Source of the DNA: Pararhizobium qamdonense
GTDB taxonomy: Bacteria; Pseudomonadota; Alphaproteobacteria; Rhizobiales; Rhizobiaceae
Direction: 5' to 3'
DNA: 64,000 bases
Assembly: GCF_029277445.1 (NCBI RefSeq)
Contig: NZ_CP119567.1
Coordinates: forward strand, 186,001-250,000
Both the position numbers and the translations under genes were made by a program. Below the pieces are notes generated by a model. That model searched no databases and was not told the DNA's origin. It saw only the letters and a list, made by a program, of their open reading frames with translations. Below are positions 40,161-56,208 of this stretch, in pieces. Position 1 is the first letter of the stretch. Each line of letters opens with the position of its first letter.

Positions 40161-40192
40161 GACCGGCAAAGACCGGAGAATGTGGGAGAAAC

Positions 40193-41374
40193 ATGACCCA
40201 ACCGAACCTCAAATTTTCCCTTGGGGAATATGAAACGCGGCTCGCCAAGACGCGCAAGGCCATGGAGGCCAAGGGCATCGACCTTTTGATCTGCAGCGAC
40301 CCCTCCAATATGGCATGGCTGACCGGTTATGACGGCTGGTCGTTCTATGTGCATCAGGCGGTCATCGTTCCTCCGGACGGAGAGCCGGTCTGGTACGGCC
40401 GCGGGCAGGACGCCAATGGCGCCAAGCTGACGGCCTATCTGAAGCATGAGAATATCATCGGTTATCCCGACCACTATGTGCAATCGACCGAACGCCATCC
40501 GATGGATTATCTGTCGGCCAAGCTGACCGAGCGCGGCTATGAGCGGCTGACCATCGGCGTCGAGATGGACAATTACTGGTTTTCGGCGGCCGCCTTCGCC
40601 GCCCTGGTCAAGCATCTGCCAAACGCCCGCTTCGTCGATGCAACGGCACTTGTGAATTGGCAGCGCGCCGTGAAGAGCGAGACCGAGATCAAATATATGC
40701 GCAATGCCGCCCGCATCGTGGAAGGCATGCACCAGCGCATCTTCGACAAGATCGAGATCGGCATGCGCAAATGCGATCTGGTCGCTGAAATCTACGATGC
40801 CGGAACGCGCGGCGTCGATGGTATCGGCGGCGACTATCCCGCAATCGTGCCGCTTCTGCCATCCGGCGTCGATGCGTCTGCGCCCCATCTCACCTGGGAT
40901 GACAAACCGATGAAGCGCGGCGAGGGCACCTTCTTCGAGATCGCCGGCTGCTACAACCGTTACCATGTGCCGTTGTCGCGGACCGTCTTTCTCGGCAAAC
41001 CGACGCAGGACTTTCTCGATGCGGAAAAGGCAACGCTCGAAGGCATGGAGGCCGGACTTGCAGCCGCAAAGCCTGGCAATACCTGCGAGGACATCGCCAA
41101 TGGCTTCTTCGCAGTCCTGAAGAAATACGGCATCGTCAAGGACAACCGCACCGGCTACGGCATCGGTATTTCCTATCCGCCGGATTGGGGCGAGCGCACC
41201 ATGAGCCTGCGTCCCGGCGACCGCACCGAGCTGAAACCGGGCATGACCTTTCATTTCATGACAGGGCTGTGGCTGGAAACGATGGGGCTCGAGATCACCG
41301 AGAGCATCCTGATCACGGACACCGGCGTCGAATGCCTTGCCAACGTTCCGCGCAAGCTGTTCGTCAAGGATTGA
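40193..41374 (+). CDS. doeA: Ectoine hydrolase
   Basis: A 393-residue member of the creatinase/M24 peptidase fold (pita-bread). The N-terminal domain has MAWLTGYDGWSFYVHQAVIV. The C-terminal catalytic domain has GDYPAIVPLLPSGVDASAPHLTWDD, GTFFEIAGCYNRYHVPLSRTVF and GIGISYPPDWGE. It opens ectoine to N-acetyl-diaminobutyrate and related isomers (also named EutD). Start ATG 40193 with GGGAGAAAC upstream, 32 bases after eutC. Confidence 0.92.
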   Translation: MTQPNLKFSLGEYETRLAKTRKAMEAKGIDLLICSDPSNMAWLTGYDGWSFYVHQAVIVPPDGEPVWYGRGQDANGAKLTAYLKHENIIGYPDHYVQSTERHPMDYLSAKLTERGYERLTIGVEMDNYWFSAAAFAALVKHLPNARFVDATALVNWQRAVKSETEIKYMRNAARIVEGMHQRIFDKIEIGMRKCDLVAEIYDAGTRGVDGIGGDYPAIVPLLPSGVDASAPHLTWDDKPMKRGEGTFFEIAGCYNRYHVPLSRTVFLGKPTQDFLDAEKATLEGMEAGLAAAKPGNTCEDIANGFFAVLKKYGIVKDNRTGYGIGISYPPDWGERTMSLRPGDRTELKPGMTFHFMTGLWLETMGLEITESILITDTGVECLANVPRKLFVKD

Positions 41375-41380
41375 GTGGTC

Positions 41381-42385
41381 ATGAACGATACCGGACTGCG
41401 CCCATCCCCCATCACGCCGACGGTCGATTTTTCGGCCGTTGGCGTCCAGCATGGTTTCCTGCGTCTCCCCTATAGCCGCGACGATTCGGCCTGGGGTTCG
41501 GTGATGATCCCGGTCACGGTCATCAAGAACGGGGAGGGGCCGACGGCCCTTCTCACCGGCGGCAATCATGGCGACGAATATGAGGGCCCGATTGCCCTGT
41601 TTGATCTTGCGCAGACATTGCAGGCGCAGGATGTGCAGGGACGCGTCATCATTGTTCCGGCGATGAACTATCCCGCGTTCCTGGCAGGCACGCGGACATC
41701 GCCGATCGACAAGGGCAATCTCAACCGGAGCTTTCCCGGCAGGCCCGATGGTACCGTGACCCAGAAGATCGCCGATTATTTCCAGCGCGAACTTCTGCCC
41801 CTTGCCGATATCGTGCTGGATTTCCACTCCGGCGGCAGGACGCTGGACTTTCTGCCGTTCTGTGCCGCGCATGTCCTGTCCGACAAGAAGCAGGAGGCGC
41901 GCTCCTTCGAACTCGTCGAGGCGTTTTCCGCACCCTATTCCATGCGGATGCTGGAGATCGATGCCGTCGGGATGTACGACACCGCAGCGGAAGAGATGGG
42001 CAAGATCTTCATCACCACCGAATTGGGTGGCGGCGGCACCGCAACGGCCAAAAGTGCAGGGATTGCCAAGCGCGGCGTCCGCAACGTTTTGGCAAAGGCA
42101 GGCATCCTGAAAGTTTCAGCCGAGGTGGCGCCGACCCAGTGGCTCGACATGCCGGATGGCGACTGCTTCTGTTTTGCCGAAGACGCCGGTCTTGTCGAGC
42201 CATGTTTTGATCTGGGCGATGCCGTCAAAAAAGGCGAGGCCGTCGCGCTCATCCATGCTGTCGGGCGCACCGGCCAGCGGCCGGTGGAAATCCGTGCCAA
42301 GATGGACGGCCTCCTTTGCGCACGCCATTTTCCCGGCCTCGTCAAGCCCGGCGACTGCGTCGCGGTCTTTGCGGTGACTGTCTGA
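41381..42385 (+). CDS. doeB: N-acetyl-L-2,4-diaminobutyrate deacetylase
   Basis: A 334-residue zinc enzyme of the succinylglutamate desuccinylase/aspartoacylase family. Zn ligands lie in LLTGGNHGDEYEGPIAL (His/Glu) and VLDFHSGGRTL (His); NLNRSFPGRPDGT carries the substrate Arg. It releases acetate and gives diaminobutyrate for DoeD (also named EutE). Six bases after doeA; last gene of the plus-strand ectoine operon. Confidence 0.92.
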   Translation: MNDTGLRPSPITPTVDFSAVGVQHGFLRLPYSRDDSAWGSVMIPVTVIKNGEGPTALLTGGNHGDEYEGPIALFDLAQTLQAQDVQGRVIIVPAMNYPAFLAGTRTSPIDKGNLNRSFPGRPDGTVTQKIADYFQRELLPLADIVLDFHSGGRTLDFLPFCAAHVLSDKKQEARSFELVEAFSAPYSMRMLEIDAVGMYDTAAEEMGKIFITTELGGGGTATAKSAGIAKRGVRNVLAKAGILKVSAEVAPTQWLDMPDGDCFCFAEDAGLVEPCFDLGDAVKKGEAVALIHAVGRTGQRPVEIRAKMDGLLCARHFPGLVKPGDCVAVFAVTV

Positions 42386-42433: not shown

Positions 42434-43555
42434 TTAACCTTCGCCGACGGTGATCCAGCTCTTTTCATCAAACGACCGTGCCATGGCATGCACGGTCTGC
42501 TCGATGCGCAGGCCCTGCTTGAAGTCGATCGCCGAAAAGGGTTCGCCCGCGATGGCGCGAATCAGTTCGTGGCATTCGATGATTTTCAAGTCGTTGAAGC
42601 CGAGGCCATGCCCCGGTGCAGGAATGAACTGGCCGTAGGGTGCATGGACAGGTGCCGTCAGGATGCGCTGAAAACCCTGTTGCGTGGCATTGCCGCCGGA
42701 CTGGTAGAGTTCGAACTCGTTCATGCGTTCCTGGTCGTAAAGGATCGAGCCCTTGGACCCGAAGATCTGTAGCGCGATGCGGCCTTTCCGGCCCCAGGCG
42801 GCGCGGTTTGCCATGAGCACGGCCGAAATGCCGTGGTCGAGCCGCATCAGGATGCTGGCACCATCATGGTTTTCCACCGCGCGGCGGCCACCATCCGGCA
42901 AGGGGCGGTCGGCATAGGGTTTTGCCATGTCGGTCACGACGGAGCGGACATGGCCGAAGAGATACCAGATCAATGACAGCGGATGCACCGCGAAATCATC
43001 CAGTGCGCCATAGCCTGCCGAACGCTCGCTCTTCCAGTAAAAGGCCGCCTCGGGATCGGCCATGAAATCCTCGTCCATCTCGGCGCGGACATGGTTGACG
43101 GTGCCGATCGCGCCGTTATCGATCAGCGTCTTCATCTGGCGCAGGATCGGGTTCTGAATATAGTTGTAGCCCATGATGGCAATTCTGCCGGAAGCTTCAA
43201 CTGCTCTGAGCATGCGCTCAGCATCGGCAAAGCCCGGCGACATCGGCTTTTCGCACCAGACATGTTTGCCGGCTTCAAGGGCTGCAATGGCCATTTCAGC
43301 GTGAAACTGGTTGGGCGTGGTGACGGAGACGACATCGACCTCCGGATCGTCGATTAGGCGGCGCCAGTCTGCCGTTGCCTTTTCAAAGCCGAACTCATCG
43401 GCGCGCACGCTTGCAAGTTCCGCATTGGCTTCCGCCAGATGAACCAGGCGCGGGCGGGCCACGTCGCCGAAGACGGTTTTGACCGCATTCCAGGCCAGCG
43501 CGTGGCACTTGCCCATATATCCCGTACCGATCAAGCCGACGCCCAATGGTTTCAT
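42434..43555 (-). CDS. Gfo/Idh/MocA-family dehydrogenase (mocA-like)
   Basis: A 373-residue NAD(P)-dependent oxidoreductase. The Rossmann motif GLIGTGYMGKCHALAW is at residues about 7-22, WCEKPMSPGFADAERML holds the catalytic EKP Lys, and GALDDFAVHPLSLIWYL has the active-site Asp/His. Family members oxidise inositols, inosamines or sugars. It is the last gene of a minus-strand operon with a ribose-type importer, an IolI-like isomerase and a LacI regulator, next to mocDEF-like genes. MocA of the rhizopine pathway is the founding member of this subfamily name, so an inositol or inosamine substrate is inferred. Confidence 0.85.
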   Translation of the reverse strand: MKPLGVGLIGTGYMGKCHALAWNAVKTVFGDVARPRLVHLAEANAELASVRADEFGFEKATADWRRLIDDPEVDVVSVTTPNQFHAEMAIAALEAGKHVWCEKPMSPGFADAERMLRAVEASGRIAIMGYNYIQNPILRQMKTLIDNGAIGTVNHVRAEMDEDFMADPEAAFYWKSERSAGYGALDDFAVHPLSLIWYLFGHVRSVVTDMAKPYADRPLPDGGRRAVENHDGASILMRLDHGISAVLMANRAAWGRKGRIALQIFGSKGSILYDQERMNEFELYQSGGNATQQGFQRILTAPVHAPYGQFIPAPGHGLGFNDLKIIECHELIRAIAGEPFSAIDFKQGLRIEQTVHAMARSFDEKSWITVGEG

Positions 43556-43588
43556 GTCGATTATCCTTACCGATTATCCTGCAGCCCG

Positions 43589-44614
43589 TCAGACCGTCTT
43601 GCGCTTTTTCTGTCTGTAGACATCGACGACGACAGCAGCGACGATAATCATGCCTTTGACGATTTCCTGGTAATAGGCATCCACCCGCAGGAAGGTAAAT
43701 CCGGAGGTCATCACGCCAAGGATGACCGTGCCGATAACCGTCCCGGTGATGCGGCCGACGCCGCCGGCAAGCGACGTGCCGCCGATCACGGTGGCTGCGA
43801 TCGCGTCCAATTCGTACATGACGCCCATGCCGGCCTGTGCGGTCTGGGCACGCGCCGCAGTGACGACGCCGGCAAGGCCCGCAAGCATGCCGGCAATTGC
43901 ATAGACCTTGATCAGATGCGCCTCGACATTGATGCCGGAAACACGGGCAGCCTGGACATTGGCGCCGATTGCATAGGTGAATTTGCCGTAGCGGGTGTAG
44001 CGCAAGGCAATATGGAAGATGAGGGCGACGACGAGGAAGACGATGACCGGCCAGATGCCCGTGCCGATGAAGTTGAACTGGTCCGTCAGACCGGAAACCG
44101 GCTGGCCCTTGGTGTACCATTTCGAGAGGCCGCGCGCAGAAACCATCATGCCCAGCGTCGCGATGAAGGGGGGTATCTTCGTCTTGGCGATCAGCCAGCC
44201 GTTGATCAACCCGGCAAGCAGGCCGACACAGAGCCCCAGGCCGATCGGCACGATGGCCGGCAGGTCGGTCAGGGCCGGATAAAGCGCACGCGGCCAGGTC
44301 GAAGCCTGGGCGACGCTTGCGGCAATCATTGCCGTGACGCCGACAACGGAGCCGGAGGAAAGATCGATGCCACCGGTGATGATCACCTGCGTGACGCCAA
44401 CGGCGATGATGCCGATGACGGCCACCTGCAGGATCATGATCGTCAGCCGCTGGGTGTTCATCAGGAAGCTCTGGCCGATGAAGATCCAGCCAAGCACCTC
44501 GTAAACCAGCGCGATGCCGATCAGCACCAGGAAGATGTTGAATTCCGGCGGGATGCGCCGCTTGCTGGCCGGCGACGATGCCGTTGCGGCCGAGGCTTCA
44601 ATCTTGGTGCTCAT
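43589..44614 (-). CDS. Sugar ABC transporter permease (ribose type)
   Basis: A 341-residue RbsC-family permease with 8-10 membrane helices. Typical stretches are [56 protein letters not shown] and [20 protein letters not shown]. Start ATG 44614 after a purine-rich ribosome binding site (GGGAGGAC). It lies 37 bases after the ATPase gene. The substrate is set by the binding protein at 46341. Confidence 0.92.
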
Positions 44615-44651
44615 GTCTGTCCTCCCTGATGGTATTTCTAAAAGCGCGCCA

Positions 44652-46190
44652 TCACTGCGCTGCAAGTTCCATGACCTTGACCTGGGTCGCTTCCGCCCGG
44701 TCAAGGAAGCCTGTGACCCGGCCCTCATGCATCACCATGACGCGGTCGCTCATGCCGAGAACCTCCGGCATTTCCGAGGAGATCATGATGACGGCAACGC
44801 CGTCGCGGGCGAGTTCCGTCACCAGCCGGTGAATTTCCGCCTTGGCGCCGACATCGATGCCGCGCGTCGGCTCGTCCAGAATGAGGATGCGCGGATTGGT
44901 CAAAAGCCAACGGCCGATCAATGCCTTCTGCTGGTTGCCGCCCGAGAGGTTCTCGATGCGCTCCTGCAGGTTCGGGGTCTTGACCCGCAGCTTGCGCGCC
45001 ATCTCCTCGCATTGTGCCGACACGGCCTTCTGATCGACAAAGCCCATCTTGACGAACTTGTCCTGCAACACGGCGATCTGCATGTTTTCCAGCACATCGA
45101 GGATCAGCAGACAGCCGGTATCCTTGCGGTCTTCAGTGAGGAAGGCCATGCGGTTGCGGATCGCTTCCGTCGGCGAACCGATCTTTACCGGCTTGCCGTT
45201 GATCTCGATCGATCCCCAGCTTGCCGGCGTCACGCCGAACAATGTTTCCGCCACATTCGAGCGGCCGGAACCCACAAGACCGGCAACGCCCAGGATTTCG
45301 CCGGCGCGCACGTCGAAGGATACGTCGTGGAAGACGTCTTTCAGGCAGAGGTCTTTCACCGACAGCACGACATCGCCGATCGGCACCTCTTCCTTGGGGA
45401 ACATCTGGGTGATTTCGCGGCCGACCATCATCTTGATGATGTCGTCGCGGGTCACGTCGGTGGAGGCGTGCGTGCCGATATATTTGCCGTCACGAAACAC
45501 CGAGAATTCGTCGGCGATCTCGAACAGCTCGTTCATCTTGTGGGTGATGTAGACGATGCCGATGCCCTGGCTGCGCAGGTCGCGGATGATGGTGAAGAGA
45601 TGGGCGACTTCGCGCTCGGTCAGCGCCGATGTCGGCTCGTCCATGATCAGAACATCGGATTCGTAGGACACGGCCTTGGCGATCTCGACCATCTGGCGAT
45701 TGGCGATCGAAAGGTCGCGCACTTCCGCCTGCGGATCGAGCGCGATGTTCAGCCGCATGAAAAGGTCAGCCGTCTTGCGGTTCATTTCGCCATGATCGAC
45801 AAAACCCAGCCGGGTGAGGGGCTCGCGGCGGATCCAGATATTTTCGGCGACCGTCATGAAGGGCATCAGGTTGAGTTCCTGATGGATCATGGCGATCCCG
45901 TTTTCGAGCGCATCCAGCGGTGATTTCAACCGGATATCGACACCCTTGAATTTTACCTCGCCCTTGTCAGGCGTGTAGATGCCGGCGAGGATCTTCATCA
46001 AGGTGGATTTGCCAGCGCCGTTTTCCCCCATCAGCGCATGCACCGTGCCGCGCTTCAACCGGAACGAAACGTCATCCAGCGCCACGACGCCCGGAAATTC
46101 CTTGCGTACGCCTTCGACAGCGAGAAGATATTCGGCATTGGGCACGGCGCCACTGGCACGTACGGCTGCCATCGTTGTCGGACTGACCAT
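44652..46190 (-). CDS. Sugar ABC transporter ATP-binding protein (ribose type)
   Basis: A 512-residue double ATPase of the RbsA/MglA type. The first half has Walker [11 protein letters not shown], signature [15 protein letters not shown] and Walker [12 protein letters not shown]. The second half has a degenerate Walker A ([15 protein letters not shown]), signature [15 protein letters not shown] and Walker [17 protein letters not shown]. Ribosome binding site GGGAGG about 10 bases before the ATG. The hairpin at 46308-46331 separates it from the binding-protein gene. Confidence 0.94.
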
Positions 46191-46307
46191 GTAGTGATGC
46201 CTCCCTGTCGCCTTGTCTGGCCGGGACCTGCGCCTTTAAGCGGCGCGGTCTCTTCATAGGTTTCGCTGTGCTGCGCAATGCGCCCGTCATCAACGAGACC
46301 GGGCAGT

Positions 46308-46331
46308 CCGGGGCGCCTGTGGGCGCCCCGG
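46308..46331 (-). terminator. GC-rich hairpin after the moc-region binding-protein gene
   Basis: Perfect 10-bp stem CCGGGGCGCC/GGCGCCCCGG with a TGTG loop, 9 bases past the binding-protein stop. No U-tract; it likely protects or partly ends the upstream message. Confidence 0.6.
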
Positions 46332-46340
46332 TGATCAGGC

Positions 46341-47270
46341 TCAGTTCTTGGCCTGATAGTCCTTGAGGTTGGCAGGGGTCACCAGTTCGAAAGGAATATA
46401 AACCTTCTTTTCGACCGTTTCGCCGCGGGCAAATTTCAAGGCTGCGTCCAGCGCACCCTTGCCCTGACCGGCAGCGTTCTGGAACACCGTCACGTCGAGG
46501 TCACCTGCTCCCATGGCGGCAAGAGCATCCTGCGTGGCATCAACGCCGCCGATCACGACCTTGTCCATCGGACGGCCGGAGGCCTTCAGTGCCTGAATGG
46601 CGCCAATCGCCATTTCGTCATTGTTGGCGATGACGGCGTCGAATTCCAGACCGGCCGAAAGCCAGTTGGTCATCAGGTCGGCACCCTGGGTCCGCGACCA
46701 GTTGGCCGTCTGCTCTTCAACGATGGTGATGCCCTTGCAGGCGTCGGTTGCCAGAACGTCGTGCACGTCCTTGGTGCGCATGCGGGCGGCCTGGTTGGAA
46801 AGCTCGCCCATCATGACCACGGCCTTGCCCTTGCCACCGAGCAGTTTGCAGACTTCCTGGGTCTGCAGCGTGCCGGATTCGGCTTCGTTGGATGCGACGA
46901 AAGCCTGCTTTTCCGGGAGCGTGTCGATGTTGATCGGCTCGCGATTGACGTAAACCAGCGGAATGCCAGCATCGGCCGCAATCTTCGACATAGCGGCAGT
47001 CGCATCGGTATCGACCGGGTTTACGACGATGGCATCGACGCCGGCGGCAATGAAGTTCTGGATCTGGCTCTGCTGCTTGGCAACGTCGTTCTGCGCGTCT
47101 TCGACCTGCAGCGTGACGCCATCAAGCGTCTTGGCATAATCCTGCATGCCGTTGCGCAAGACGGTCAGGAAGTTGTCGTCGAACAGCGCCATCGATACGC
47201 CGACCGTTTCGGCATGGGCCGCCGTCGACATCATCACAGCCAGGGCTGCGCTCATAATCATTTTCTTCAT
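46341..47270 (-). CDS. Sugar ABC transporter substrate-binding protein (RbsB/MocB type)
   Basis: A 309-residue periplasmic protein. Signal peptide residues 1-23 (MKKMIMSAALAVMMSTAAHA). The type I fold has VGVSMALFDDNFLTVLRNGM, AGVDAIVVNPVDTDATAAMSKIAADAGIPLVYVNREP and VIANNDEMAIGAIQAL, then IGGVDATQDALAAM. It is similar in class to inositol/rhizopine-binding proteins. ATG 47270 has GTGGAGGAAC upstream; in-frame sequence above it is not coding in character. Confidence 0.91.
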   Translation of the reverse strand: MKKMIMSAALAVMMSTAAHAETVGVSMALFDDNFLTVLRNGMQDYAKTLDGVTLQVEDAQNDVAKQQSQIQNFIAAGVDAIVVNPVDTDATAAMSKIAADAGIPLVYVNREPINIDTLPEKQAFVASNEAESGTLQTQEVCKLLGGKGKAVVMMGELSNQAARMRTKDVHDVLATDACKGITIVEEQTANWSRTQGADLMTNWLSAGLEFDAVIANNDEMAIGAIQALKASGRPMDKVVIGGVDATQDALAAMGAGDLDVTVFQNAAGQGKGALDAALKFARGETVEKKVYIPFELVTPANLKDYQAKN

Positions 47271-47395
47271 GATGTAGTTCCTCCACAAAACGGTGACCGG
47301 CGACCACCCTCCACAAGCCGGAGGCGCCCCATTCCCGGCGGCGCCCAATTCCCGTATGCCGCCTCTCCCGGGCGGCTCTGCATCAAAACAGAATA

Positions 47396-47433
47396 AACAA
47401 ACCGATAGTTTGTTAATACGGAATACATATTCC
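47396..47433 (-). promoter_or_regulatory. Two palindromes upstream of the binding-protein gene
   Basis: AACAAACCGATAGTTTGTT-type repeat (arms AACAAAC 47396-47402 and GTTTGTT 47408-47414) and GGAATACATATTCC (47420-47433, arms GGAATA/TATTCC). They lie 125-165 bases before the start codon and could bind the LacI protein or another regulator. No consensus is known to me. Confidence 0.45.
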
Positions 47434-47506
47434 ATTTTATGATTGGATCGTCAAGGGCGTTCCATCCGGCATTCCTGCAAAAACGTCGGCGTGAACGTCC
47501 GTTCTC

Positions 47507-48319
47507 CTACGCCTTGGCGGCAAGGAAGTTCATACTCTCCCGGATGGCTGTCTGGATGTCGGTGGATTGATGGACGTCCGGTGAGAAAGGCTCGAACGAG
47601 AATGGTCCGGGATAGCCGTTTTCCCGCAGTTTCCGGATCTGGCCGGCATTATCCAGCCGATCGGTTGAATCAACGAGGATGCGGTGCGGATCGCGCATCG
47701 CGTTCACGGTGACATCCGGATCGGCGACACCGGAGATATGCACCAGCCCGGTCATTTCAGGATGGAATTTTTCTTCTCCTGCCAGATAATGATGGAACGT
47801 GTCATGCACGATTTTGAACCGATTCTCCCCCGAAACGGCGCGAATGGCCTCAACGGCCTCGGTTTTGGACCGCAGCGAGCAGATTTCGAACCCGAGCGGC
47901 TCGACGAGACCTGTAATGCCTGCATCTTCCAGCATCGGCTTCAGCGCGGTCAGCGCCTGGCGCAGGTTTTCCTGGCGCTCGCCATCGGCCTGGCCGCTGC
48001 CGTCGTTCACCGGCACGAGAACCAGCGCCTTGGCGCCACAGTCGCGCGCATAGGTTATGAGTTCCTGCGCTTCGCGGGCGCGGGCCTCGTTCCACTCATT
48101 GAAGCGTTGCAAGGCATTGATCGAGATGATCGTCAGCCCGTGCTTTTCGGCCAAGGCCTTGATCTCACTGGGCGGCGTCCCGTCGATGATGGCGTTGCCA
48201 TCGAGATCATTGCGAATTTCAACGGCTTCAATGCCGAGCGATGCCGCTAGACCGAAAAACGCGTCCGGCGATAATGCCGGAGCCGTCATGTGATTGAGTG
48301 CGAATGAAAGAGTGGTCAT
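47507..48319 (-). CDS. TIM-barrel sugar isomerase/epimerase (IolI/MocC-like)
   Basis: A 270-residue AP-endonuclease-2-fold enzyme. Motifs are GIEAVEIRNDLDG, LVLVPVNDGSG, ITGLVEPLGFEICSLRSK (metal Glu), FKIVHDTFHHYLAGE (metal His/Asp) and GPFSFEPFSPDV (metal Glu). Size and motifs resemble 2-keto-myo-inositol isomerase IolI; MocC of the rhizopine cluster is a larger relative. ATG 48319 is used, with AGGAGGAAC upstream. Lies between the LacI and binding-protein genes. Confidence 0.82.
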   Translation of the reverse strand: MTTLSFALNHMTAPALSPDAFFGLAASLGIEAVEIRNDLDGNAIIDGTPPSEIKALAEKHGLTIISINALQRFNEWNEARAREAQELITYARDCGAKALVLVPVNDGSGQADGERQENLRQALTALKPMLEDAGITGLVEPLGFEICSLRSKTEAVEAIRAVSGENRFKIVHDTFHHYLAGEEKFHPEMTGLVHISGVADPDVTVNAMRDPHRILVDSTDRLDNAGQIRKLRENGYPGPFSFEPFSPDVHQSTDIQTAIRESMNFLAAKA

Positions 48320-48532
48320 GGTTGCTGTTCCTCCTGCGAAATGAACGGGCCAGGGAGGGCCGGGCGGCACGCTTTTCACGCGTGCGGTCCGGATGAAAAT
48401 CTCTCTCCCTGAGGCTGGAGGATCAGCAGCTTATTGCGGAACAGTCAAAGAGGAAGACGCCATTTCCCTGTCATTCGTGACAGAATGCGAAAACGTCTTG
48501 AGGGAATTCCATCATTTCCCGCGCTGTGCCGG

Positions 48533-49564
48533 TCAAATATTCTCCGGCGTGAAAATATCGAACGGCAAGAATGTCTGACCGGGAACGCCGCCGATGCCGC
48601 GATCTATCGCGGCAACCATCTGGCCGATCAGTTCGCGGGCGATCGGGGCGGCGGGTGTTGATATCGCCATGGTCACCAGATCATCGGCCAGCGCTGCGCG
48701 TGATTCCGGCGTCAGTTCGTTGACGACCACAAGCAGCTTTCCGGCACGCTTCTCTTCCGCCAGCGCCGTGATCGCACCCTCCATGCCGCCGCCGCAGACA
48801 TAGAAGCCGATGAGATCGGGGTGACGCTGCAGGAGATGGACGGTTGCCTCATGGGTAATCTCGGCAGTGTCCAGATTGACCAGCGTATCCAATACCTCGA
48901 AGTCTGGCGCGTTCTCGCGGAAATAAGACCGGAAACCGATCTCGCGCAGTTCATGGCCGTGAAAACGGTGGCTGCCGATGAATGTCGCGACCTTGCCCGG
49001 CTTTCGCGCCGCCTTGGCGATCATCCAGGCGGCGGTGCGCCCGACCGTGCGGTTGTTCAGCCCCACATAGCCTTCACGCACGCCGGCGGCGAAATCGGAG
49101 AGAAGCGAGAAAACGGGAATTCCCTTTTCCCGCAAGTCTTCCACCGCCGCCGTCACGGCCGGATAATCCGGGCAAACAAGCGCCACCGCCTGGTTGCGGG
49201 CGGCCACCGCCTTGAGTTTTTCCGTCAATGCCGTCGGTGTCGCACTCGTATTATAGTCGATCTGGGGAATGATGCGGACGCCGGGCGCCGACAGGGCCGC
49301 AGCTTCGATCTCCCTTGTCATCGACTGGTAGAAATACTGGTTCGGCTTTTGCAGGATGAAGCCTAGTCGATATTGCGGCAGATCCTCGAAGACCCGCTGA
49401 CGCAACAGGCTGACGGCATGGTAGCCGATCGCCTTGGCCGCATCGTAAACCCGCCGCGCGGTTTCCTCCCGAACCTTGTGGCGGCCGTTCAGAACGCGAT
49501 CGACAGTGGCGACGCTGACGCCTGCAGCATTGGCGAGATCGGTAATGGTCGGGCGTCCGCTCAT
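48533..49564 (-). CDS. LacI-family transcriptional regulator
   Basis: A 343-residue repressor. The LacI helix-turn-helix and hinge are at residues 1-60 (PTITDLANAAGVSVATVDRVLNGRHKVREETARRV). The rest is a periplasmic-binding-like sensor domain with IGFYVCGGGMEGAI and VVNELTPESRAAL. Ribosome binding site AGGAGAAC just before the ATG. It is divergent from the mocD-like gene and upstream of the import/dehydrogenase operon, so it probably controls both arms; the ligand should be the transported polyol or a derivative. Confidence 0.9.
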   Translation of the reverse strand: MSGRPTITDLANAAGVSVATVDRVLNGRHKVREETARRVYDAAKAIGYHAVSLLRQRVFEDLPQYRLGFILQKPNQYFYQSMTREIEAAALSAPGVRIIPQIDYNTSATPTALTEKLKAVAARNQAVALVCPDYPAVTAAVEDLREKGIPVFSLLSDFAAGVREGYVGLNNRTVGRTAAWMIAKAARKPGKVATFIGSHRFHGHELREIGFRSYFRENAPDFEVLDTLVNLDTAEITHEATVHLLQRHPDLIGFYVCGGGMEGAITALAEEKRAGKLLVVVNELTPESRAALADDLVTMAISTPAAPIARELIGQMVAAIDRGIGGVPGQTFLPFDIFTPENI

Positions 49565-49591
49565 CGGTTCTCCTGAGGTAAACCATCATTT

Positions 49592-49631
49592 TCTCATGAG
49601 AGATATGATGTGTTTTGATAGATTACATCAA
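49592..49631. promoter_or_regulatory. Palindromes between the lacI and mocD-like genes
   Basis: TCTCATGAGA (49592-49601, perfect) and TTGATAGATTACATCAA (49615-49631, 5-bp arms). Their place between divergent promoters suits the local LacI protein. Inference only. Confidence 0.4.
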
Positions 49632-49705
49632 GGCTGCATTGAGCTGCAATCAAAGTCAACCTATCCTGATTGCACAAGCCAAGACCGGACGGCGGGAGGA
49701 TGTAA

Positions 49706-50791
49706 ATGGACAAGGTTGCCACGAAACGCGACTATAGCCTGCTCGGCCGCGATGCCCAGGCTGCCGTCGACAGCGGACTTGCCGCTGCCGAATGGTATCA
49801 CACCGACATTCCGCGCAGGCAGATGAAAGAGCTGATGAAGCGCGAGGATGGCCCCGCTATCCGCGATACGGTGATCTGGCTCGGCAGCATGGTGGTTACC
49901 GGCGCACTTGGGATCTATTTCTGGGGCACCTTGTGGTGCGTGCCGTTCTTCCTGATCTACGGCGTCATGTATGGCTCGGCATCGGATTCGCGCTGGCATG
50001 AATGCGGTCACGGCACGGCCTTCAAGACGCGCTGGATGAATGATGCGGTCTATCAGATCGCCTGTTTCATGATCATGCGCAATCCGGTGACCTGGCGCTG
50101 GAGCCACACGCGGCACCACACCGATACGGTCATCGTCGGCCGCGATCCGGAAATCGCCGTGATGCGCCCGCCGGACCTGTTCAGGCTGATCCTCAATGTC
50201 TTCGGCCTGCTGGACGCGGGCTATGCGATGATCGACATGGTCCGCAATGCCGCGGGGATCATCAGTCCGGCCGAAAAAACCTTTATCCCCGAGCAGGAAC
50301 AGCCGCGCGTGATCCGTGTCGCCCGCATCTGGATGCTGATCTATGCCGCAACGCTTGCACTGGCGATCTATCTCGGCTCCATCCTGCCGCTGATGCTGGT
50401 CGGACTGCCGCGGCTCTATGGGGCCTGGCATCATGTCCTGACCGGGCTTTTGCAGCATGGCGGCCTTGCCGACAACGTCATCGATCACCGCCTGAATAGC
50501 CGCAGCGTCTACATGAACCGATTCAGCCGGTTCGTGTACTGGAACATGAACTATCATGTCGAACATCACATGTTTCCGATGGTGCCCTATCATGCACTGC
50601 CGCAGCTGCATGCGATGATCAAGCATGACCTGCCCGCCCCGAACAGGTCGATGCTCGAAGGCTATCGCGAGATGATCCCGGCCTTCCTGCGCCAGCTGAG
50701 AAACGAGGACTATTTTCTCAAGCGCGCGCTGCCGCCGACGGCCAAGCCGTACCGCGAGGAATTTCACGCCGAGCCAATCGCCGCCGAATAG
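49706..50791 (+). CDS. mocD: Membrane fatty-acid-desaturase-type oxygenase (MocD-like)
   Basis: A 361-residue membrane di-iron enzyme. Three histidine boxes are intact: HECGH (98-102), HTRHH (134-138) and HVEHH (284-288), with extra His at 242-243 and 251. Membrane spans are at about 57-90 and 205-235. In Sinorhizobium rhizopine strains MocD with MocE and MocF is required to demethylate 3-O-methyl-scyllo-inosamine. Ribosome binding site GGGAGGA, 36 bases before mocE. A lipid desaturase role is an alternative, but the dedicated ferredoxin and reductase beside it favour oxygenation of a small molecule. Confidence 0.8.
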   Translation: MDKVATKRDYSLLGRDAQAAVDSGLAAAEWYHTDIPRRQMKELMKREDGPAIRDTVIWLGSMVVTGALGIYFWGTLWCVPFFLIYGVMYGSASDSRWHECGHGTAFKTRWMNDAVYQIACFMIMRNPVTWRWSHTRHHTDTVIVGRDPEIAVMRPPDLFRLILNVFGLLDAGYAMIDMVRNAAGIISPAEKTFIPEQEQPRVIRVARIWMLIYAATLALAIYLGSILPLMLVGLPRLYGAWHHVLTGLLQHGGLADNVIDHRLNSRSVYMNRFSRFVYWNMNYHVEHHMFPMVPYHALPQLHAMIKHDLPAPNRSMLEGYREMIPAFLRQLRNEDYFLKRALPPTAKPYREEFHAEPIAAE

Positions 50792-50827
50792 AGCGGTATC
50801 AAAGAACAGAAGCGAATGGAGGAAACG

Positions 50828-51142
50828 ATGAGCAACTGGGTGGAAGTCTGCGCAACGGACGATATCGATGAAGAGGATGTCATCCGCTTCGATCACGAGG
50901 GAAAAACCTTTGCGGTGTACCGCAGCCCCGACGACCGGTTCTTTGCGACCGATGGGCTCTGCACCCATGAAAAAATCCATCTTGCCGACGGGCTTGTCAT
51001 GGACGACATCATCGAATGTCCAAAGCACAATGGCCGCTTCAGCTATATGACGGGAGAGGCCAAGGGAGCTCCCGTCTGCGTCGATCTCAAGACCTACCCG
51101 GTCAAGGTCGAGGATGGCAGCGTCTTCATTTCACTGGGTTGA
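50828..51142 (+). CDS. mocE: Rieske-type [2Fe-2S] ferredoxin (MocE family)
   Basis: A 104-residue single Rieske domain. Cluster ligands are Cys45-x-His47 (CTHEKIH) and Cys64-x2-His67 (CPKHNGRF). It carries electrons from the MocF-like reductase to the MocD-like oxygenase. ATG 50828 has GGAGGAAAC upstream; an ATG at 50816 lies before this site and is unlikely. The stop is 10 bases before mocF. Confidence 0.9.
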   Translation: MSNWVEVCATDDIDEEDVIRFDHEGKTFAVYRSPDDRFFATDGLCTHEKIHLADGLVMDDIIECPKHNGRFSYMTGEAKGAPVCVDLKTYPVKVEDGSVFISLG

Positions 51143-51152
51143 GGGGGCGATC

Positions 51153-52391
51153 ATGACGCATATCCTCATCATCGGGGCAGGGGAATGCGGCGCGCGCGCA
51201 GCTTTTTGCCTGCGCGAAAAGGGTTTTCCTGGAGAGATCACCCTTGTCGGCGCCGAGGAACATCTGCCCTATGAGCGCCCGCCGCTCTCTAAGGATGCGC
51301 TGCTGCTGGGACATGCGCCCAGGCTGGTCTCCGATGCCGCCCGCTATCTGGAGGCAGGCATCACGGTGCTCACCGGCATCAGCGCGGAAAATATCGAGCC
51401 GCTCGGGAAAACTGTACGCTTGTCCGATGGCCGCAATCTCGCCTATGACCAGCTGCTTTTGACGACAGGTGCCCGCCCACGCCCGTTTCCGGGCCAAAAT
51501 CCAGTCGCCGCAGCGTCCGGCACACGCATTCGGACATTGCGAACCCATGGTGACGCCGTTGCCATCCGTGCTGCCCTGCAGCCGGGTACGCATCTTGCCA
51601 TCATCGGCGGCGGGTTCATCGGTCTTGAACTGGCGGCAACCGCGCGCAAGCTCGGCGCGCGCGTCACGCTGGTCGAGGGCCTGCCCCGCATCCTCAGCCG
51701 TGGCGTACCGGAAGAACTGGCCGCCGTGGTCGCCGAGCGGCACAAGGCCGAGGGCGTCGAAATCCTCTGCGGCGTCAAGATCCGGGGCCTTGAAGAAAAC
51801 CGGGAGGGTGCAAAAATCCTTTTGGATGATGACAGCACGATTGCTGCAGACCTGATCGTCGTCGGCATCGGTGCCATCCCGAATATCGAACTTGCCCGCG
51901 ATGCCGGACTTGCAATCGACAACGGCATCGCCGTTGACGCAAGTTTGCGAACATCCGTGCCGGACATCTTTGCCGCAGGCGACTGCTGCTCATTTCCCCT
52001 GTCGCATTACGGCAATCGCCGCCTGCGCCTGGAAGCCTGGCGCAATGCCCAGGACCAGGGCCAGCTTGCCGCCGCCAATCTCTTGGGGGCAGAAGAGACG
52101 ATCACCGCCATTCCCTGGTTCTGGTCGGATCAATACGACTTGACGCTGCAGATTGCCGGTCTCGCCGACGGTGCGGCCCAGACCGTCCGCCGCGAGATGG
52201 CTCAAGGCGCCTTCATTCTCTTCCATCTCGATGCCGGGGGCCGGTTGATCGCCGCCAGCGGTATCGGTCCCGGCAACACAGTTGCCCGCGATATCCGCCT
52301 TGCCGAAATGATGATTGCGGCCGGCATCCACCCCGATCCGGCAGCCCTTGCAGCGCCGGACACCAAGCTGAAGACGCTGCTGGCGGCCTGA
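51153..52391 (+). CDS. mocF: FAD/NAD(P)H ferredoxin reductase (MocF-like)
   Basis: A 412-residue pyridine-nucleotide-disulfide-type reductase of the Rieske/ferredoxin-reductase group. FAD motif ILIIGAGECGARAAF (2-16), PYERPPLSKDAL, NAD motif IIGGGFIGLELAATARKLGARV, and FAAGDCCSFP near residue 280. The C-terminal reductase domain has SDQYDLTLQIAGLA. GGGGGCGATC precedes ATG 51153. Electron donor for MocE. Confidence 0.88.
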   Translation: MTHILIIGAGECGARAAFCLREKGFPGEITLVGAEEHLPYERPPLSKDALLLGHAPRLVSDAARYLEAGITVLTGISAENIEPLGKTVRLSDGRNLAYDQLLLTTGARPRPFPGQNPVAAASGTRIRTLRTHGDAVAIRAALQPGTHLAIIGGGFIGLELAATARKLGARVTLVEGLPRILSRGVPEELAAVVAERHKAEGVEILCGVKIRGLEENREGAKILLDDDSTIAADLIVVGIGAIPNIELARDAGLAIDNGIAVDASLRTSVPDIFAAGDCCSFPLSHYGNRRLRLEAWRNAQDQGQLAAANLLGAEETITAIPWFWSDQYDLTLQIAGLADGAAQTVRREMAQGAFILFHLDAGGRLIAASGIGPGNTVARDIRLAEMMIAAGIHPDPAALAAPDTKLKTLLAA

Positions 52392-52462
52392 AGGCCGCAG
52401 GACCAAACAGAGAACCAACCGCAGCGGCTCCTTCGCCGCTCGCGGCAACGGAGAATGATGCC

Positions 52463-53254
52463 ATGAGACATCACCGGCCAACCGTCGCCGACCTTCTGTC
52501 GATGAAGGGAAAACGTCAGCTGAGCATGCTGCGCGTCGAGACACTGGAGGAGGCGGAGGCCGCCGAACGGGCAGGGGTCGATCTCGTCTCCGTGCCGCCA
52601 TCGCTTCTGAGCCCGGCCTTCCGCGAGGCAGCACCCTCCGTCTTTGCCTTTCCCGGTCTGGAATATGGCGATCTTGTCACGGCGGACGAGTATATCCGTG
52701 CTGCTTTCCAGGCCCTGAAAGCAGGTGGTGACGCGGTCTATTGCGCCGCAGGTCTTTCGACCGTCCGCCGTATGCGCGAAGAAGGTATCCCGGTTTGCGG
52801 CCATGTCGGGCTCATTCCCTCAAAAGCCACCTGGACCGGCGGTTTCCGCGCGGTCGGCAAGACGTCGGTCAGCGCACTTGAAATCTGGCGGCAGACAAAG
52901 GCACTTGAAGACGCCGGTGCATTTGCCGCCGAGATCGAGGTCGTTCCGGGCGAAGTCGCAGCCGCGATCAGCGAACGCACCTCCATGTTGATGCTGTCCA
53001 TGGGAGCGGGCACCGGCTGTGACGCGCAATATCTGTTTGCAGACGATGTGCTCGGCGCCACCAAAGGCCATGTTCCGCGCCACGCCAGGATCTATCGGAA
53101 CTTCGCCGTCGAATATAACCGGCTGCAACAGGAGCGCATTGCCGCATTCGGCGAATTTGTGGCCGATGTCAAATCCGGCGCCTATCCCGCCAAATCGCAT
53201 CTGGTCGGCATCGAGCCTGCGGAGCTGGAAGCATTCCTGCAGTCGCTGGCGTAA
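52463..53254 (+). CDS. PanB-like (ketopantoate hydroxymethyltransferase superfamily) enzyme, divergent
   Basis: A 263-residue TIM barrel. PVCGHVGLIPS (110-120), GGFRAVGK (126-133), EVVP (159-162, catalytic Glu position), SMGAG (179-183) and KGHVPRHARIY (201-211) match PanB. The three PanB metal ligands seem lost: VGDS is VSVPPS here (42-47), the second Asp site is changed and IEGG is CAAG (94-97). It is therefore unlikely to make pantothenate and may use another acceptor. It is last in the mocDEF-like operon, 71 bases after mocF. Function is not known. Confidence 0.7.
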   Translation: MRHHRPTVADLLSMKGKRQLSMLRVETLEEAEAAERAGVDLVSVPPSLLSPAFREAAPSVFAFPGLEYGDLVTADEYIRAAFQALKAGGDAVYCAAGLSTVRRMREEGIPVCGHVGLIPSKATWTGGFRAVGKTSVSALEIWRQTKALEDAGAFAAEIEVVPGEVAAAISERTSMLMLSMGAGTGCDAQYLFADDVLGATKGHVPRHARIYRNFAVEYNRLQQERIAAFGEFVADVKSGAYPAKSHLVGIEPAELEAFLQSLA

Positions 53255-53315: not shown

Positions 53316-55178
53316 TCAAACTGAGAGGCAGGACGCTTCAAACGGAGCAAGCTGCACCGGTTGGGAACTCATGCCGAGTTTCGTGGTGTCGATCGACTGT
53401 TCCTGCGCCGTGAGATTGGCGATCCAGGCAAGACGGCCGTCCGCTGTATCCACCGTAAATGCCAAGACCTTGTCCGGCGCGGAGGACGTGACCGCCTGCC
53501 AGGGGTTTCCGGCAATGTCCGAAAGCCCCCTGACGATGGCATGGAGCGGGCGTTTGCCGCCGTCTTCGACCGGCTCATGCTTACCGGCATAAAGTCCGAA
53601 CGGGCCGGTGAGTGCGCACAAGGTCAGGGTTTCAAGACCGGCATCCAGGACTGAGGTGACATAGCCTGCGGCAAAGGCTGCGGCGAATTGGCCGTTATGG
53701 CGCGGATCCCGGTTGGCCATCGGGATGCGGCCACCATCCGGATTGTCCATCGTGCGGCTGCCATAGGGGTTCTGGCGCATGGGGATGGTGGAGGGGCCGA
53801 TCCGGTAGGGCTTGCCGCCATAGATGGCGCGGACGGATTTCGTGATGAAGGGCAGGGCCTCGAGCGTCTGCATGACGCTGATATCGTCGGCGGCATGGAC
53901 GATCGGGTTGGTGCAATGGCTGATGAAGGCGAGGTTTTCGCCCGGCGCGCGCTTGCGGTTGAGTTCGGTAAAATAGGACAGCATCCCACCGCCGAGGCGG
54001 ATGCCGGGAAACGCCTGCAGGGCCGCCGCGTAAACGTCTGCAAGCGGCGGGCAGTCCGGCCACGCGCTGCCGGGCGGTGTCGATTGCCGGTCAACCGAGG
54101 GGCAGACCATGATGGCGTCAGGGCCGAAACCCGCGTCCCGCATCCAGGCAGAGATTTCCTGCAATTCCTCGCCCAGTGCCCTTTGGCAGGGGACGGCAAT
54201 TTCGAGCGTCGTGGTGCCGGTGTGAACAGCTGAAACTGCGGCGAAATCTGTAAAGGCTGACGGGCCGTGACCGGCTGCCGGGTCGAAATGGAAAAGCAGC
54301 TCCTGAACGTTCAGCGCATCCGGTTGCTCAAGAGCCGCAAGGCTGTCTTTCGCTTCCTCAGGCGTGATCAACAGGCCGATCGCAGGCATGGTGCCGGTGC
54401 CTGTGCCGGGCGTAAGATGGACGATGCCATGATTTTCGGCGGCGGCGGCGGCAACGTCGGACGCGGTTCGGCTGTCGGTGATCGTCAGGGTGATCTGCTG
54501 GGAGACCGGTCCGTTTGCCGGGATCATATAGGGCCAGGGCAGGGCGAGCGGGCGGACATAGGTCTTGTAGGACGCATCCGACCAGTTGCGCTGGTCCTCC
54601 ATCTCGAACGTGTCGCCTTCCATGCGGCATTCGGCGCTGACGCCGGCAAGGGCGGTGTGCGTGATGGAGCGCATGTCCTTGAACGGCTGCCACGGCTCGA
54701 TCAGGTCAGGAAGCTTCGTGTCTTCGATGGCGCCATCGACATGCTCGACGGTCACCGGCGTGCCCGCGATGCCGACGATGGGATGGAGAATGCAAAAACC
54801 GCAGCGATTGGTCTCAAAGCCGGTCTCCGATTGCGCCAAGCCCTTGAAAATCAGCCTTCCGTCCGCTGTGCCTTCGATCGCGGCGGATATATCGAGAAGG
54901 CTGCCATACGGACCATGGCAACGGGCGCTATAGGCGACGCTGAACCCCGCCTCCGTCTCGGTGACGGCAAGGTTTGATACTGTGGGATCATAGGTGCCCC
55001 AGTCGCGGTCGCGCACCAGGTAGGAGATGGCGCGCAGCACCTCGACGCCATCATAGCGGATTGCGCGCAGATTGCCGCCCGCCAGTTGCGCCGTCAGTTT
55101 TCCGGCTCTTAGCAAACGGGGCGCAGGCTCGGCCTGCCTGGTTCCGTAAAGCTTGAACGCGGTTTCTGCATCGTTCAT
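53316..55178 (-). CDS. apnL: D-apionate lactonase
   Basis: A 620-residue cytosolic protein matching the recently defined ApnL family: FKLYGTRQ at the start, YLVRDRDWGTY, GFETNRCGFCILHP and EPWQPFKDM. The middle has a TIM-barrel-like part with FISHCTNPIVHAADD, AIYGGKPYRIGPSTIP and NPDGGRIPMANRDPRHNGQFAAA. It hydrolyses D-apionolactone to D-apionate. Start ATG 55178, one base after the dehydrogenase stop. Last gene of the apiose operon; converges with the PanB-like gene. Confidence 0.82.
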   Translation of the reverse strand: MNDAETAFKLYGTRQAEPAPRLLRAGKLTAQLAGGNLRAIRYDGVEVLRAISYLVRDRDWGTYDPTVSNLAVTETEAGFSVAYSARCHGPYGSLLDISAAIEGTADGRLIFKGLAQSETGFETNRCGFCILHPIVGIAGTPVTVEHVDGAIEDTKLPDLIEPWQPFKDMRSITHTALAGVSAECRMEGDTFEMEDQRNWSDASYKTYVRPLALPWPYMIPANGPVSQQITLTITDSRTASDVAAAAAENHGIVHLTPGTGTGTMPAIGLLITPEEAKDSLAALEQPDALNVQELLFHFDPAAGHGPSAFTDFAAVSAVHTGTTTLEIAVPCQRALGEELQEISAWMRDAGFGPDAIMVCPSVDRQSTPPGSAWPDCPPLADVYAAALQAFPGIRLGGGMLSYFTELNRKRAPGENLAFISHCTNPIVHAADDISVMQTLEALPFITKSVRAIYGGKPYRIGPSTIPMRQNPYGSRTMDNPDGGRIPMANRDPRHNGQFAAAFAAGYVTSVLDAGLETLTLCALTGPFGLYAGKHEPVEDGGKRPLHAIVRGLSDIAGNPWQAVTSSAPDKVLAFTVDTADGRLAWIANLTAQEQSIDTTKLGMSSQPVQLAPFEASCLSV

Positions 55179-55179
55179 T

Positions 55180-56208
55180 TCAACAGCTTCCGATGTCGAT
55201 CGTGGCTTTGGAGGCGGCACTTTTATAGGCGGCTTCGACAAGCGCAAAGGTTTTCAGATTGTCCGTGCCGGACGTGGAGGTTTCCGCTCCCGCCTTCAGG
55301 CTGTCGGCCCAATGCTGCTGGATGGCGAACACGCTTTCCTGGATGTTGTGCCAGGGGCGCGAAGCCCAGGAGAGAAGCGTGGGCGCGACGTCGGTATTGA
55401 CCGTGCCTTGCGCATTGGTCACCTGCAATTCGTAGCCTTGCGACAGGCGGATCGAGCCCTCGGTTCCGTCGATCTCGATCAGCGTTTCCGGGAAGGGTTC
55501 GACCGGCTGCTTCGTCGCATAGCTGACATCGACGATGGAGGTCGCGCCGTTTTCGTGATCGAGCAGGATGGTGGCGACATCCTCGCCATTGATCTTCGGG
55601 TTAACCCGCTTGGTGCGGGCCGTCAGAGACGTTACGTCGCCCAGAATGTAGCGGGCGATATCCAGCGTGTGGATGCCGAGATCCTCGATGATGAAGCGCT
55701 TGCCCTCTGCAAGGTAAGGCTGGCCGGAAAAGACATCATAGCCGGAGCGGAAGGAAAAACGGCCCCAGAAGGGCGTTCCGATCGCGCCCGCATCCAAGAC
55801 CTTGCGCACAGCCTGGATCGGCGTCTGCCAGCGAAAGTTCTCATGGATCATCAGCGGAATGCCGGCCGCCGTGCAGGCTTCAACCATGGCCTTGGCGTCG
55901 CCAAGTGTCGGCGCAAACGGTTTCTGGCAGATTGCCGGCACCTTGTGGGCTGCCGCCAACTCGACCAGCGCACGGTGGCTGTTCACGGTCGTGGCGATAT
56001 CGACGAAATCGAATCCGCCTTCGGCAAACATCTGGCCGGCATCTGTATAGCGGCGCGCGATGCCGAACTGGTCGCCGACGATCTTCAAGCGTTGCGGATC
56101 ACGGTCGCAGATGGCAACGATGTCTCCACCATCGACGTCGTTCCAGCCATGCATCTGGTTGACGGCGAAAAAGCCGCAGCCGATCAGGGCGCCCTTGAGG
56201 TCTGGCAT
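55180..56208 (-). CDS. apsD: D-apiose dehydrogenase (Gfo/Idh/MocA family)
   Basis: A 342-residue NAD-dependent oxidoreductase. Rossmann motif GALIGCGFFAVNQMHGW, catalytic ICQKPFAPTLGDAKAMV, IHENFRWQTP and FIIEDLGIHTLDIARYIL. Next to apnL in the same operon, it most likely oxidises D-apiose to D-apionolactone. Substrate is inferred from context. ATG 56208 with AAGGAT upstream; an earlier TTG is possible but poor. A RIME repeat separates it from the permease gene. Confidence 0.85.
   Translation of the reverse strand: MPDLKGALIGCGFFAVNQMHGWNDVDGGDIVAICDRDPQRLKIVGDQFGIARRYTDAGQMFAEGGFDFVDIATTVNSHRALVELAAAHKVPAICQKPFAPTLGDAKAMVEACTAAGIPLMIHENFRWQTPIQAVRKVLDAGAIGTPFWGRFSFRSGYDVFSGQPYLAEGKRFIIEDLGIHTLDIARYILGDVTSLTARTKRVNPKINGEDVATILLDHENGATSIVDVSYATKQPVEPFPETLIEIDGTEGSIRLSQGYELQVTNAQGTVNTDVAPTLLSWASRPWHNIQESVFAIQQHWADSLKAGAETSTSGTDNLKTFALVEAAYKSAASKATIDIGSC

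Follow-up and report, generated by a model that had tools for sequence, protein, structure and literature searches.

The closest described systems are the rhizopine catabolic (moc) loci, which are regulated by MocR through moc-boxes, and clusters in which mocDEF is linked to a gene of the LacI family. The mocDEF genes were reportedly the concern of Bahar et al. (1998), and FixV is the activator of nifA2 in Mesorhizobium symbionts, in Lotus nodules. In the passages of Sullivan et al. (2013; PMC3538637) available to us, LacI-linked mocDEF clusters are described as divergent from a relative of FixV, and some species are said to have a TIM-barrel gene located downstream; the clusters are read there as rhizopine genes, and the inducer of FixV is given as "possibly an inositol derivative". 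We analyzed a ten-gene cluster with the same LacI-mocDEF-TIM arrangement, located within a 64,000-nucleotide stretch of Pararhizobium qamdonense DNA (G000:C2:186001-250000; referred to as the window), which is part of a 900 kb contig in a Rhizobium-family genome of 6.24 Mb. We read this cluster (probability about 0.6) as a module that takes up a plant O-methyl-inositol, D-pinitol or D-ononitol being the likeliest, and removes its O-methyl group.

The LacI-mocDEF-TIM arrangement is thus already known (PMC3538637). Added here are (i) the separation of the module from rhizopine catabolism, (ii) its one-carbon and inositol neighbours, (iii) the derivation of the moc operon, and (iv) the likeness of the TIM-barrel and nifA2 promoters. 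No proposal of an O-methyl-inositol role for LacI-linked mocDEF was found in the passages of the open-licence literature consulted, and in the available part of Ravcheev et al. (2014; PMC4052901), which gives seven LacI groups for inositol, the LacI of the module is not named. A MocR/PmocB biosensor, tried also on myo-inositol, ononitol and pinitol, was activated by scyllo-inosamine and (-)-3-O-methyl-scyllo-inosamine ((-)-3-O-MSI), as stated in the excerpt seen of PMC6668481. MocR thus answers amines, which would leave the O-methyl-inositols to another regulator.

The substrate would enter through the binding protein, permease and ATPase, as suggested by the gene types and by close relatives in the moc loci, namely MocB and, in one locus (L110), the importer. 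MocD, together with MocE and MocF, would hydroxylate the methyl ether using NAD(P)H and O2, giving free inositol and formaldehyde; we infer this step from the function attributed to mocDEF in the breakdown of rhizopine. The one-carbon unit may then pass via folate, FolD and PurU to formate, as the presence of purU and folD beside relatives of the module suggests, and the dehydrogenase and the IolI-like TIM barrel would convert inositol into inososes as input for the iol pathway on the chromosome, where iolE is present. For pinitol, the route would lead from D-chiro-inositol through 1-keto-D-chiro-inositol to 2-keto-myo-inositol, the last conversion being the reaction of IolI.

Comparison with the rhizopine loci

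Five MocR loci of the S. meliloti L5-30 / R. leguminosarum type were compared with the window, namely those of R. indicum (L104), R. lentis (L112), Phyllobacterium zundukense (L110) and S. meliloti (L111, L113); L5-30 is not among them. These loci were located through MocD and MocR. The rhizopine binding-protein model NF052284 was rejected as a guide: 7 of 394 genomes exceed its cut-off, and the stretches of 14-20 kb retrieved from them showed no MocD. This model does not separate the two cases: the window protein reaches 48.2 vs 420 bits, and the binding protein of L104 (6294-7223) is unlisted at E 1e-10. One of the seven genomes (L096) has what looks, by eye and from its reading frames, like an inositol-gene neighbourhood.

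The identity of the module proteins to their moc counterparts is 78-81% for MocB, 76-83% for MocD, 77-86% for MocE, 67-69% for MocF and 77-84% for the PanB-like protein, query coverage being 80% for the MocD match of L111 and 55% for the PanB-like match of L113. In addition, L110 contains an ATPase and a permease 95% and 86% identical to those of the window. The rhizopine-like gene set under a LacI regulator, as put forward in the preliminary description of this DNA, is supported, and an O-methylated inositol is a plausible substrate. On the other hand, two features that this description believed to be missing from the rhizopine genes of S. meliloti L5-30 proved to be present in the moc loci compared: a PanB-like gene occurs in all five, and a full ATP-binding cassette (ABC) importer in L110.

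The label "mocABC-type" could be retained for MocB alone. The MocA of L104 is only 28% identical to the window dehydrogenase, over 212 aa, and a search with the latter yielded matches in three of the five loci, all of them at just 27-30%. The gene in the MocC position of L104 encodes IolE, above the TIGR04379 cut-off (394.7 vs 290 bits), whereas the window TIM barrel has no NCBIfam match. All five moc loci carry purU, and one of them a 70% identical FolD, while the window module has neither. The mode of regulation also differs, LacI with palindromic sites taking the place of MocR with moc-boxes. The MocR of L104 finds in the window only a 26% match, at 32764-33525, outside the module. Pairs of moc-boxes (AAAGYGGYTCT, up to one mismatch per box) precede mocD in all five MocR loci, but none was found within two mismatches in three intergenic stretches of the window; conversely, a scan of four MocR loci gave no LacI operator ahead of mocD or mocB (best score -4.6 bits). 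The module is thus without a close MocR, moc-boxes, a close MocA and an IolE-type MocC. The earlier idea of a distinct methyl-inositol pathway is supported.

In the MocD tree (43 rows, four of them rhizopine-type and 31 from the best 80 relatives; rooted, like the binding-protein tree, at the midpoint for drawing only), the rhizopine-type rows are split between two positions within the LacI-type rows, and two changes are required by well-supported branches. L103 and L109, on the outside, have very long branches and may have been joined falsely. The four rhizopine rows of the binding-protein tree (31 rows) form one group (support 100/99) within the LacI-type rows, adjoining L039 and L043 of Ensifer adhaerens (90/83). 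Since rhizopine MocD and MocB both nest inside LacI-type trees, the rhizopine moc operon appears to have been derived from the LacI module by exchange of the regulator and the dehydrogenase, a direction that depends on the position of the root.

Conservation and enzymes of the module

A MocD search of genome contigs confirmed 402 relatives, of which the best 80 loci were used for all locus counts. A gene was scored as present at an identity of 45-70%, depending on the gene (60% or more for IolG), with coverage over half; 60 of the fetched stretches were full-length and 20, at contig ends, were shorter than 21 kb. Genus labels were assigned by hand. LacI, MocD, MocE and MocF occur together in all 80 loci, so that their grouping is no accident. 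They are accompanied by the binding protein in 57, the permease in 51, the PanB-like protein in 49, the TIM barrel in 43, the ATPase in 30 and the dehydrogenase in 22. Inositol 2-dehydrogenase (IolG) is encoded in the flank of 33 loci, in several arrangements, formyltetrahydrofolate deformylase (PurU) in 12 and FolD in two; at least one of these three is present in 41 of the 80 loci; for the 60 full-length stretches the number is 35. Broken down by genus, IolG was found in Mesorhizobium (24/24), Phyllobacterium (6/11), Aminobacter (1/1) and named Rhizobium (2/16), and not in the flanks of Sinorhizobium (0/7), Ensifer (0/3), Pararhizobium (0/1), Xaviernesmea (0/1) or loci without a genus name (0/16).

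Formyltetrahydrofolate deformylase and FolD are expected where formaldehyde enters the folate pool. The presence of IolG, PurU and FolD beside relatives is what would be expected if the oxygenase removes an inositol O-methyl group as formaldehyde. The source genome encodes a single close IolG (77%) and a single close PurU (86%), each on contig C1, and has iolE on the chromosome; since the close copies are single, these genes are unlikely to be chance neighbours of the module in relatives, although the lineages are not independent. In Rhizobium sp. SL42 the whole module is present; its minus arm also contains folD and purU and its plus arm iolG, whose product exceeds the IolG cut-off (421.3 vs 355 bits). 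L080 unites, in a different order, the importer, dehydrogenase, MocDEF, PanB-like protein, PurU, FolD, a second LacI and TIM barrel, and IolG. IolG and iolC (5-dehydro-2-deoxygluconokinase) adjoin the module in L105 and L106, and in L018 (nearest to the window's MocD in the tree, 94%) purU directly follows the PanB-like gene, where the window has none.

MocD matched 284 plasmid records, with an identity of 80-90% in 184, 60-80% in 69 and under 60% in 31; Rhizobium accounted for 147 and Sinorhizobium for 85.

Some further arrangements were observed. R. sophoriradicis (L103 7498-14194) has a distant cluster of LacI, MocD, MocE, PanB, binding protein, permease and ATPase that lacks MocF (MocD 59% and LacI 31% identical to those of the window). 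Paracoccus seriniphilus (L108 7960-10370) has a MocD/MocE-like pair under a LysR regulator, with no inositol gene among 14 annotated features. A ring-hydroxylating Rieske oxygenase (such as L060 17174-18442) and an enolase-superfamily protein (such as L057 18376-19659) are neighbour families in 10 loci each.

The oxygenase has three His boxes (HECGH, HTRHH and HVEHH) and scores above the Pfam FA_desaturase cut-off; the ferredoxin belongs to the MocE family TIGR02377 (179.8 vs 136.15 bits). Among PDB chains, the dehydrogenase is closest to 4fb5 (1.1e-208), a probable oxidoreductase with no named activity. The nearest chain with a named activity is scyllo-inositol dehydrogenase 5ya8 (1.2e-95), followed by 6a3f (1.7e-71), which we take to be levoglucosan dehydrogenase. 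The TIM barrel matches 2q02/4hgx (6.6e-45), the former presumably a protein of the Salmonella inositol island, while its nearest relative with a named activity is IolI (1i60), to which similarity is weak (6.9e-7). The model of the binding protein (mean predicted local distance difference test, pLDDT, 90) is closest to 4yo7 (44% identity), a structure which we assume was solved with myo-inositol; the myo-inositol binding protein of Caulobacter (4irx) stands at rank 42. The model of the PanB-like protein (pLDDT 83) superimposes on PanB structures with a template modelling (TM) score of about 0.74 and a root-mean-square deviation of 6-7 A.

Promoter sites and the relationship to FixV

Of 88 LacI-MocD promoters, 85 have a top palindrome score higher than that of any of 88 shuffled promoters; the 15-base operator matrix was refined on the same promoters that it scored, and here, as in the counts below, the shuffles preserved base composition only. 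In the window alone, each site pattern occurs once against 0.67-0.71 expected, which is not unusual, and the operator pattern used genome-wide was designed so as to match the site of the window; the weight of the palindromic sites therefore rests on their conservation. In the stretch between LacI and the TIM-barrel gene, a palindrome one base wider, with up to one half-site mismatch, is present in 12 of 45 loci (1.1% of shuffles); where no TIM-barrel gene separates LacI from the binding-protein gene, it was found in 3 of 26 (2.3% of shuffles). This wider spacing was first noticed by eye and counted afterwards. A second element, TTTCANNNATGAAA, occurs within two mismatches in 25 of the 45 LacI-TIM promoters (1.6% of shuffles). 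An exact TTGACT is present in 7 of 18 LacI-TIM promoters inspected, in six of them 34-35 bases from site 2, and is missing from the other 11; it lies 34 bases from the start of site 2 in the window, L018, L024 and L158, the last being a nifA2 promoter. Conservation reveals sites in both arms. LacI would sense the substrate and control both arms through these sites; its ligand and the sign of control we infer.

The same regulator has a relative beside nifA. Of 146 Mesorhizobium genomes, 131 contain a LacI at E 1e-115 or better and 100 a NifA at E 1e-150 or better. Eighteen LacI-nifA neighbours, chosen by eye among the matches listed and nearly identical (about one lineage), represent FixV copies; they are 61-62% identical to the window LacI. 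FixV of the Mesorhizobium symbiosis islands differs from the module regulator in controlling nifA2 and not catabolic genes, but the promoter elements are similar, and the nifA2 promoter resembles that of the TIM-barrel gene of the module. With the 15-base matrix, none of the 18 fixV stretches has a site scoring more than 11 bits. All 18 nevertheless contain, directly after fixV, TGATAAAATACTATCA, in which perfect half-sites stand at the wider spacing; they also contain site 2 with no more than one mismatch. Among 12 other Mesorhizobium LacI copies, half-sites within one mismatch were found downstream of LacI in seven (a count made without shuffles).

Across 59 LacI copies of the module, 85 positions of the ligand domain are conserved, of which FixV retains 94% and the Mesorhizobium-type rows, LacI proteins encoded beside MocD (24 from Mesorhizobium plus L082), 95%; for the 33 conserved positions of the DNA-binding domain the values are 86% and 100%, both groups being about 60% identical to the window LacI. 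Five ligand-domain positions are altered in FixV (R97H, A178T, H204Q, H248E and D250E, window numbering). Retention is 74-81% in L080_p0, L091_p0, L106_0 and L106_1, 88% in L105 and 45% in L103, but it tracks overall identity (43-48% in the 74-81% rows), and L106_1 and L105 adjoin MocD, so that these rows provide no clean negative control.

In L158, which we take to be M. japonicum MAFF303099, site 1 occupies bases 6-21 after fixV, site 2 begins at base 38 and TTGACT at base 72; the published gap of 558 bp agrees with a possible start codon at base 559. According to the passages seen of PMC3538637, a 536 bp fragment upstream of nifA2 was Fix+ and one of 426 bp was Fix-. In L158 the former would begin at about base 23, past site 1, keeping site 2 and TTGACT, both of which the 426 bp fragment would lose. 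Site 1 looks dispensable for activation, because the Fix+ fragment begins just past it, and it was rejected as the essential FixV site of nifA2; the published deletions look to fit site 2 better.

Substrate and surroundings of the module

Passages of a study of R. mesoamericanum (PMC5789663) provide an external indication: homologues of mocDEF were up 1.5-2.1 fold in Mimosa root exudate, in which pinitol was the most concentrated component (145 uM). Several observations weigh against an O-methyl-inositol substrate. This induction is small, fructose and gluconate were abundant in the exudate as well, and the authors read it as rhizopine catabolism (PMC5789663, same passages); the R. mesoamericanum locus is not among the loci compared here. 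Mesorhizobium, a single lineage, contributes 24 of the 33 IolG-bearing loci, and the window's own module lacks purU, folD and iolG. The importer and the dehydrogenase are non-fixed parts of the module: the binding protein was found in 0/7 Sinorhizobium and 7/16 named Rhizobium loci, the dehydrogenase in 0/7 and 3/16. In S. meliloti 1021 the module is located on pSymB and has no importer. Solved relatives of the binding protein that rank above 4irx include many ribose and glucose/galactose binders. The PanB-like protein, too, misfits a simple scheme. PanB uses a catalytic lysine and metal ligands; E181 and H136 of PanB match E159 and H114, but the positions of K112, D84 and E114 are occupied by Y93, G65 and A95. 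An ordinary PanB activity was rejected on account of these replacements of catalytic-lysine and metal-ligand positions; by its neighbourhood, the protein is a candidate formaldehyde-to-tetrahydrofolate transferase.

The resemblance to moc genes could also mean that the module constitutes a second rhizopine or inosamine pathway, degrading 3-O-methyl-scyllo-inosamine or scyllo-inosamine under LacI. The binding protein, MocD, MocE and MocF are indeed 67-86% identical to their counterparts in MocR loci, and Sullivan et al. took LacI-linked mocDEF clusters for rhizopine genes (passages of PMC3538637). We consider this quite unlikely, as the amines are already sensed by MocR (excerpt of PMC6668481), the module has no close MocR, moc-box, close MocA or IolE-type MocC, and MocD at 60% or more is present in 253 plasmid records compared with only 14 for MocR at 80% or more. 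That the module acts on another O-methyl or N-methyl compound (a methylated sugar or betaine), the inositol genes being adjacent for other reasons, is unlikely. FA_desaturase/Rieske pairs do exist in other contexts (for example L108, under LysR), and the dehydrogenase scores on the levoglucosan dehydrogenase model NF052479, although below its cut-off (290.2 vs 650 bits); however, IolG accompanies the module in several arrangements, iolC lies beside it in L105 and L106, and rhizopine genes, to which the module is related, have an O-methyl inositol derivative as substrate. A lipid-modifying desaturase system that merely adjoins an ordinary sugar ABC operon is very improbable: Pfam places the oxygenase in FA_desaturase, but its top NCBIfam desaturase match is far under the cut-off (35.5 vs 500 bits), LacI, MocD, MocE and MocF occur together in 80/80 loci, and LacI-type sites are conserved in both arms of relatives.

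The features of the O-methyl-inositol module proposed here are collected in Table 1. The reading frames and Pfam domains confirm the ten genes, six on the minus and four on the plus strand, and the divergent arms of the preliminary description. The gene starts adopted were 44614 (permease), 47270 (binding protein), 48319 (TIM barrel), 50828 (MocE) and 51153 (MocF).

Table 1. Genes and putative control elements of the module (window coordinates)
Feature	Position	Strand	Evidence and remarks
Gfo/Idh/MocA dehydrogenase	42434..43555	-	Pfam; probably inositol dehydrogenase, not MocA of moc loci
ABC permease	43589..44614	-	BPD_transp_2; 86% to permease of P. zundukense moc locus L110
ABC ATPase	44652..46190	-	ABC_tran; 95% to ATPase of L110
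Periplasmic binding protein, close MocB relative	46341..47270	-	Peripla_BP_4; 78-81% to MocB of five MocR loci
AP_endonuc_2 TIM barrel, IolI-like, possible inosose isomerase	47507..48319	-	Pfam; PDB 2q02/4hgx, 1i60; predicted
TTGACT, -35-like, TIM-barrel promoter	48443..48448	-	Distance from site 2 as in nifA2
Site 2, TIM-barrel promoter, TGTCACGAATGACA	48469..48482	-	Two mismatches vs consensus
Site 1, TIM-barrel promoter, TGATGGAATTCCCTCA	48499..48514	-	Three half-site mismatches; significance only via relatives
LacI-family regulator, FixV-related	48533..49564	-	Pfam; 61-62% to 18 FixV copies beside nifA
Weaker putative operator, divergent promoter, TGAGGTAAACCATCA	49574..49588	.	12.9 bits
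Main putative operator, divergent promoter, TGATAGATTACATCA	49616..49630	.	22.0 bits; conserved in relatives
MocD-type membrane di-iron oxygenase, presumed O-demethylase	49706..50791	+	FA_desaturase; 76-83% to MocD of MocR loci
MocE-type Rieske ferredoxin	50828..51142	+	TIGR02377 above cut-off; CxH..CxxH motif
MocF-type ferredoxin reductase	51153..52391	+	Pyr_redox_2, Reductase_C; 67-69% to MocF of MocR loci
PanB-fold protein, common to rhizopine loci	52463..53254	+	Pantoate_transf; Foldseek 3vav/1m3u; 77-84% to copies in MocR loci

Next to the module, at 34217-42385, is an ectoine degradation cluster (NCBIfam matches to DoeA, 819.1 vs 613 bits, and DoeB, 616.5 vs 402.7) that also includes a PALP enzyme and, by eye, ornithine-cyclodeaminase-like and ABC-transporter-like frames; a GntR/aminotransferase regulator lies at 32710-34095. 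At 53316-61645 there is a second sugar ABC operon (matches at 56566-60545) with a Gfo/Idh/MocA protein and a PGDH_C protein, and a 643-aa protein (53316-55247) without a Pfam or PADLOC match at E 0.001. A heavy-metal P-type ATPase-like frame adjoining a MerR-like regulator, judged from first residues only, was seen at 17121-20104.

Pinitol and ononitol accumulate in Lotus nodules, where LjPLT11 on the symbiosome membrane transports both (passages of PMC8730688). A wider scenario, which we offer tentatively and with more doubt than confidence, is that LacI and FixV read the same plant O-methyl-inositol, and that Lotus symbionts placed nifA2 behind a module promoter with FixV sites, so that nodule pinitol or ononitol would switch on nitrogen fixation; the module under MocR, with a new dehydrogenase, would have become the rhizopine operon, and the PanB-fold protein would perform a new one-carbon reaction. 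Reading clusters of this type as plant O-methyl-inositol genes would provide rhizobia with a route to cyclitols abundant in legumes and root exudates, account for the origin of the rhizopine operon and supply a concrete candidate ligand for FixV.

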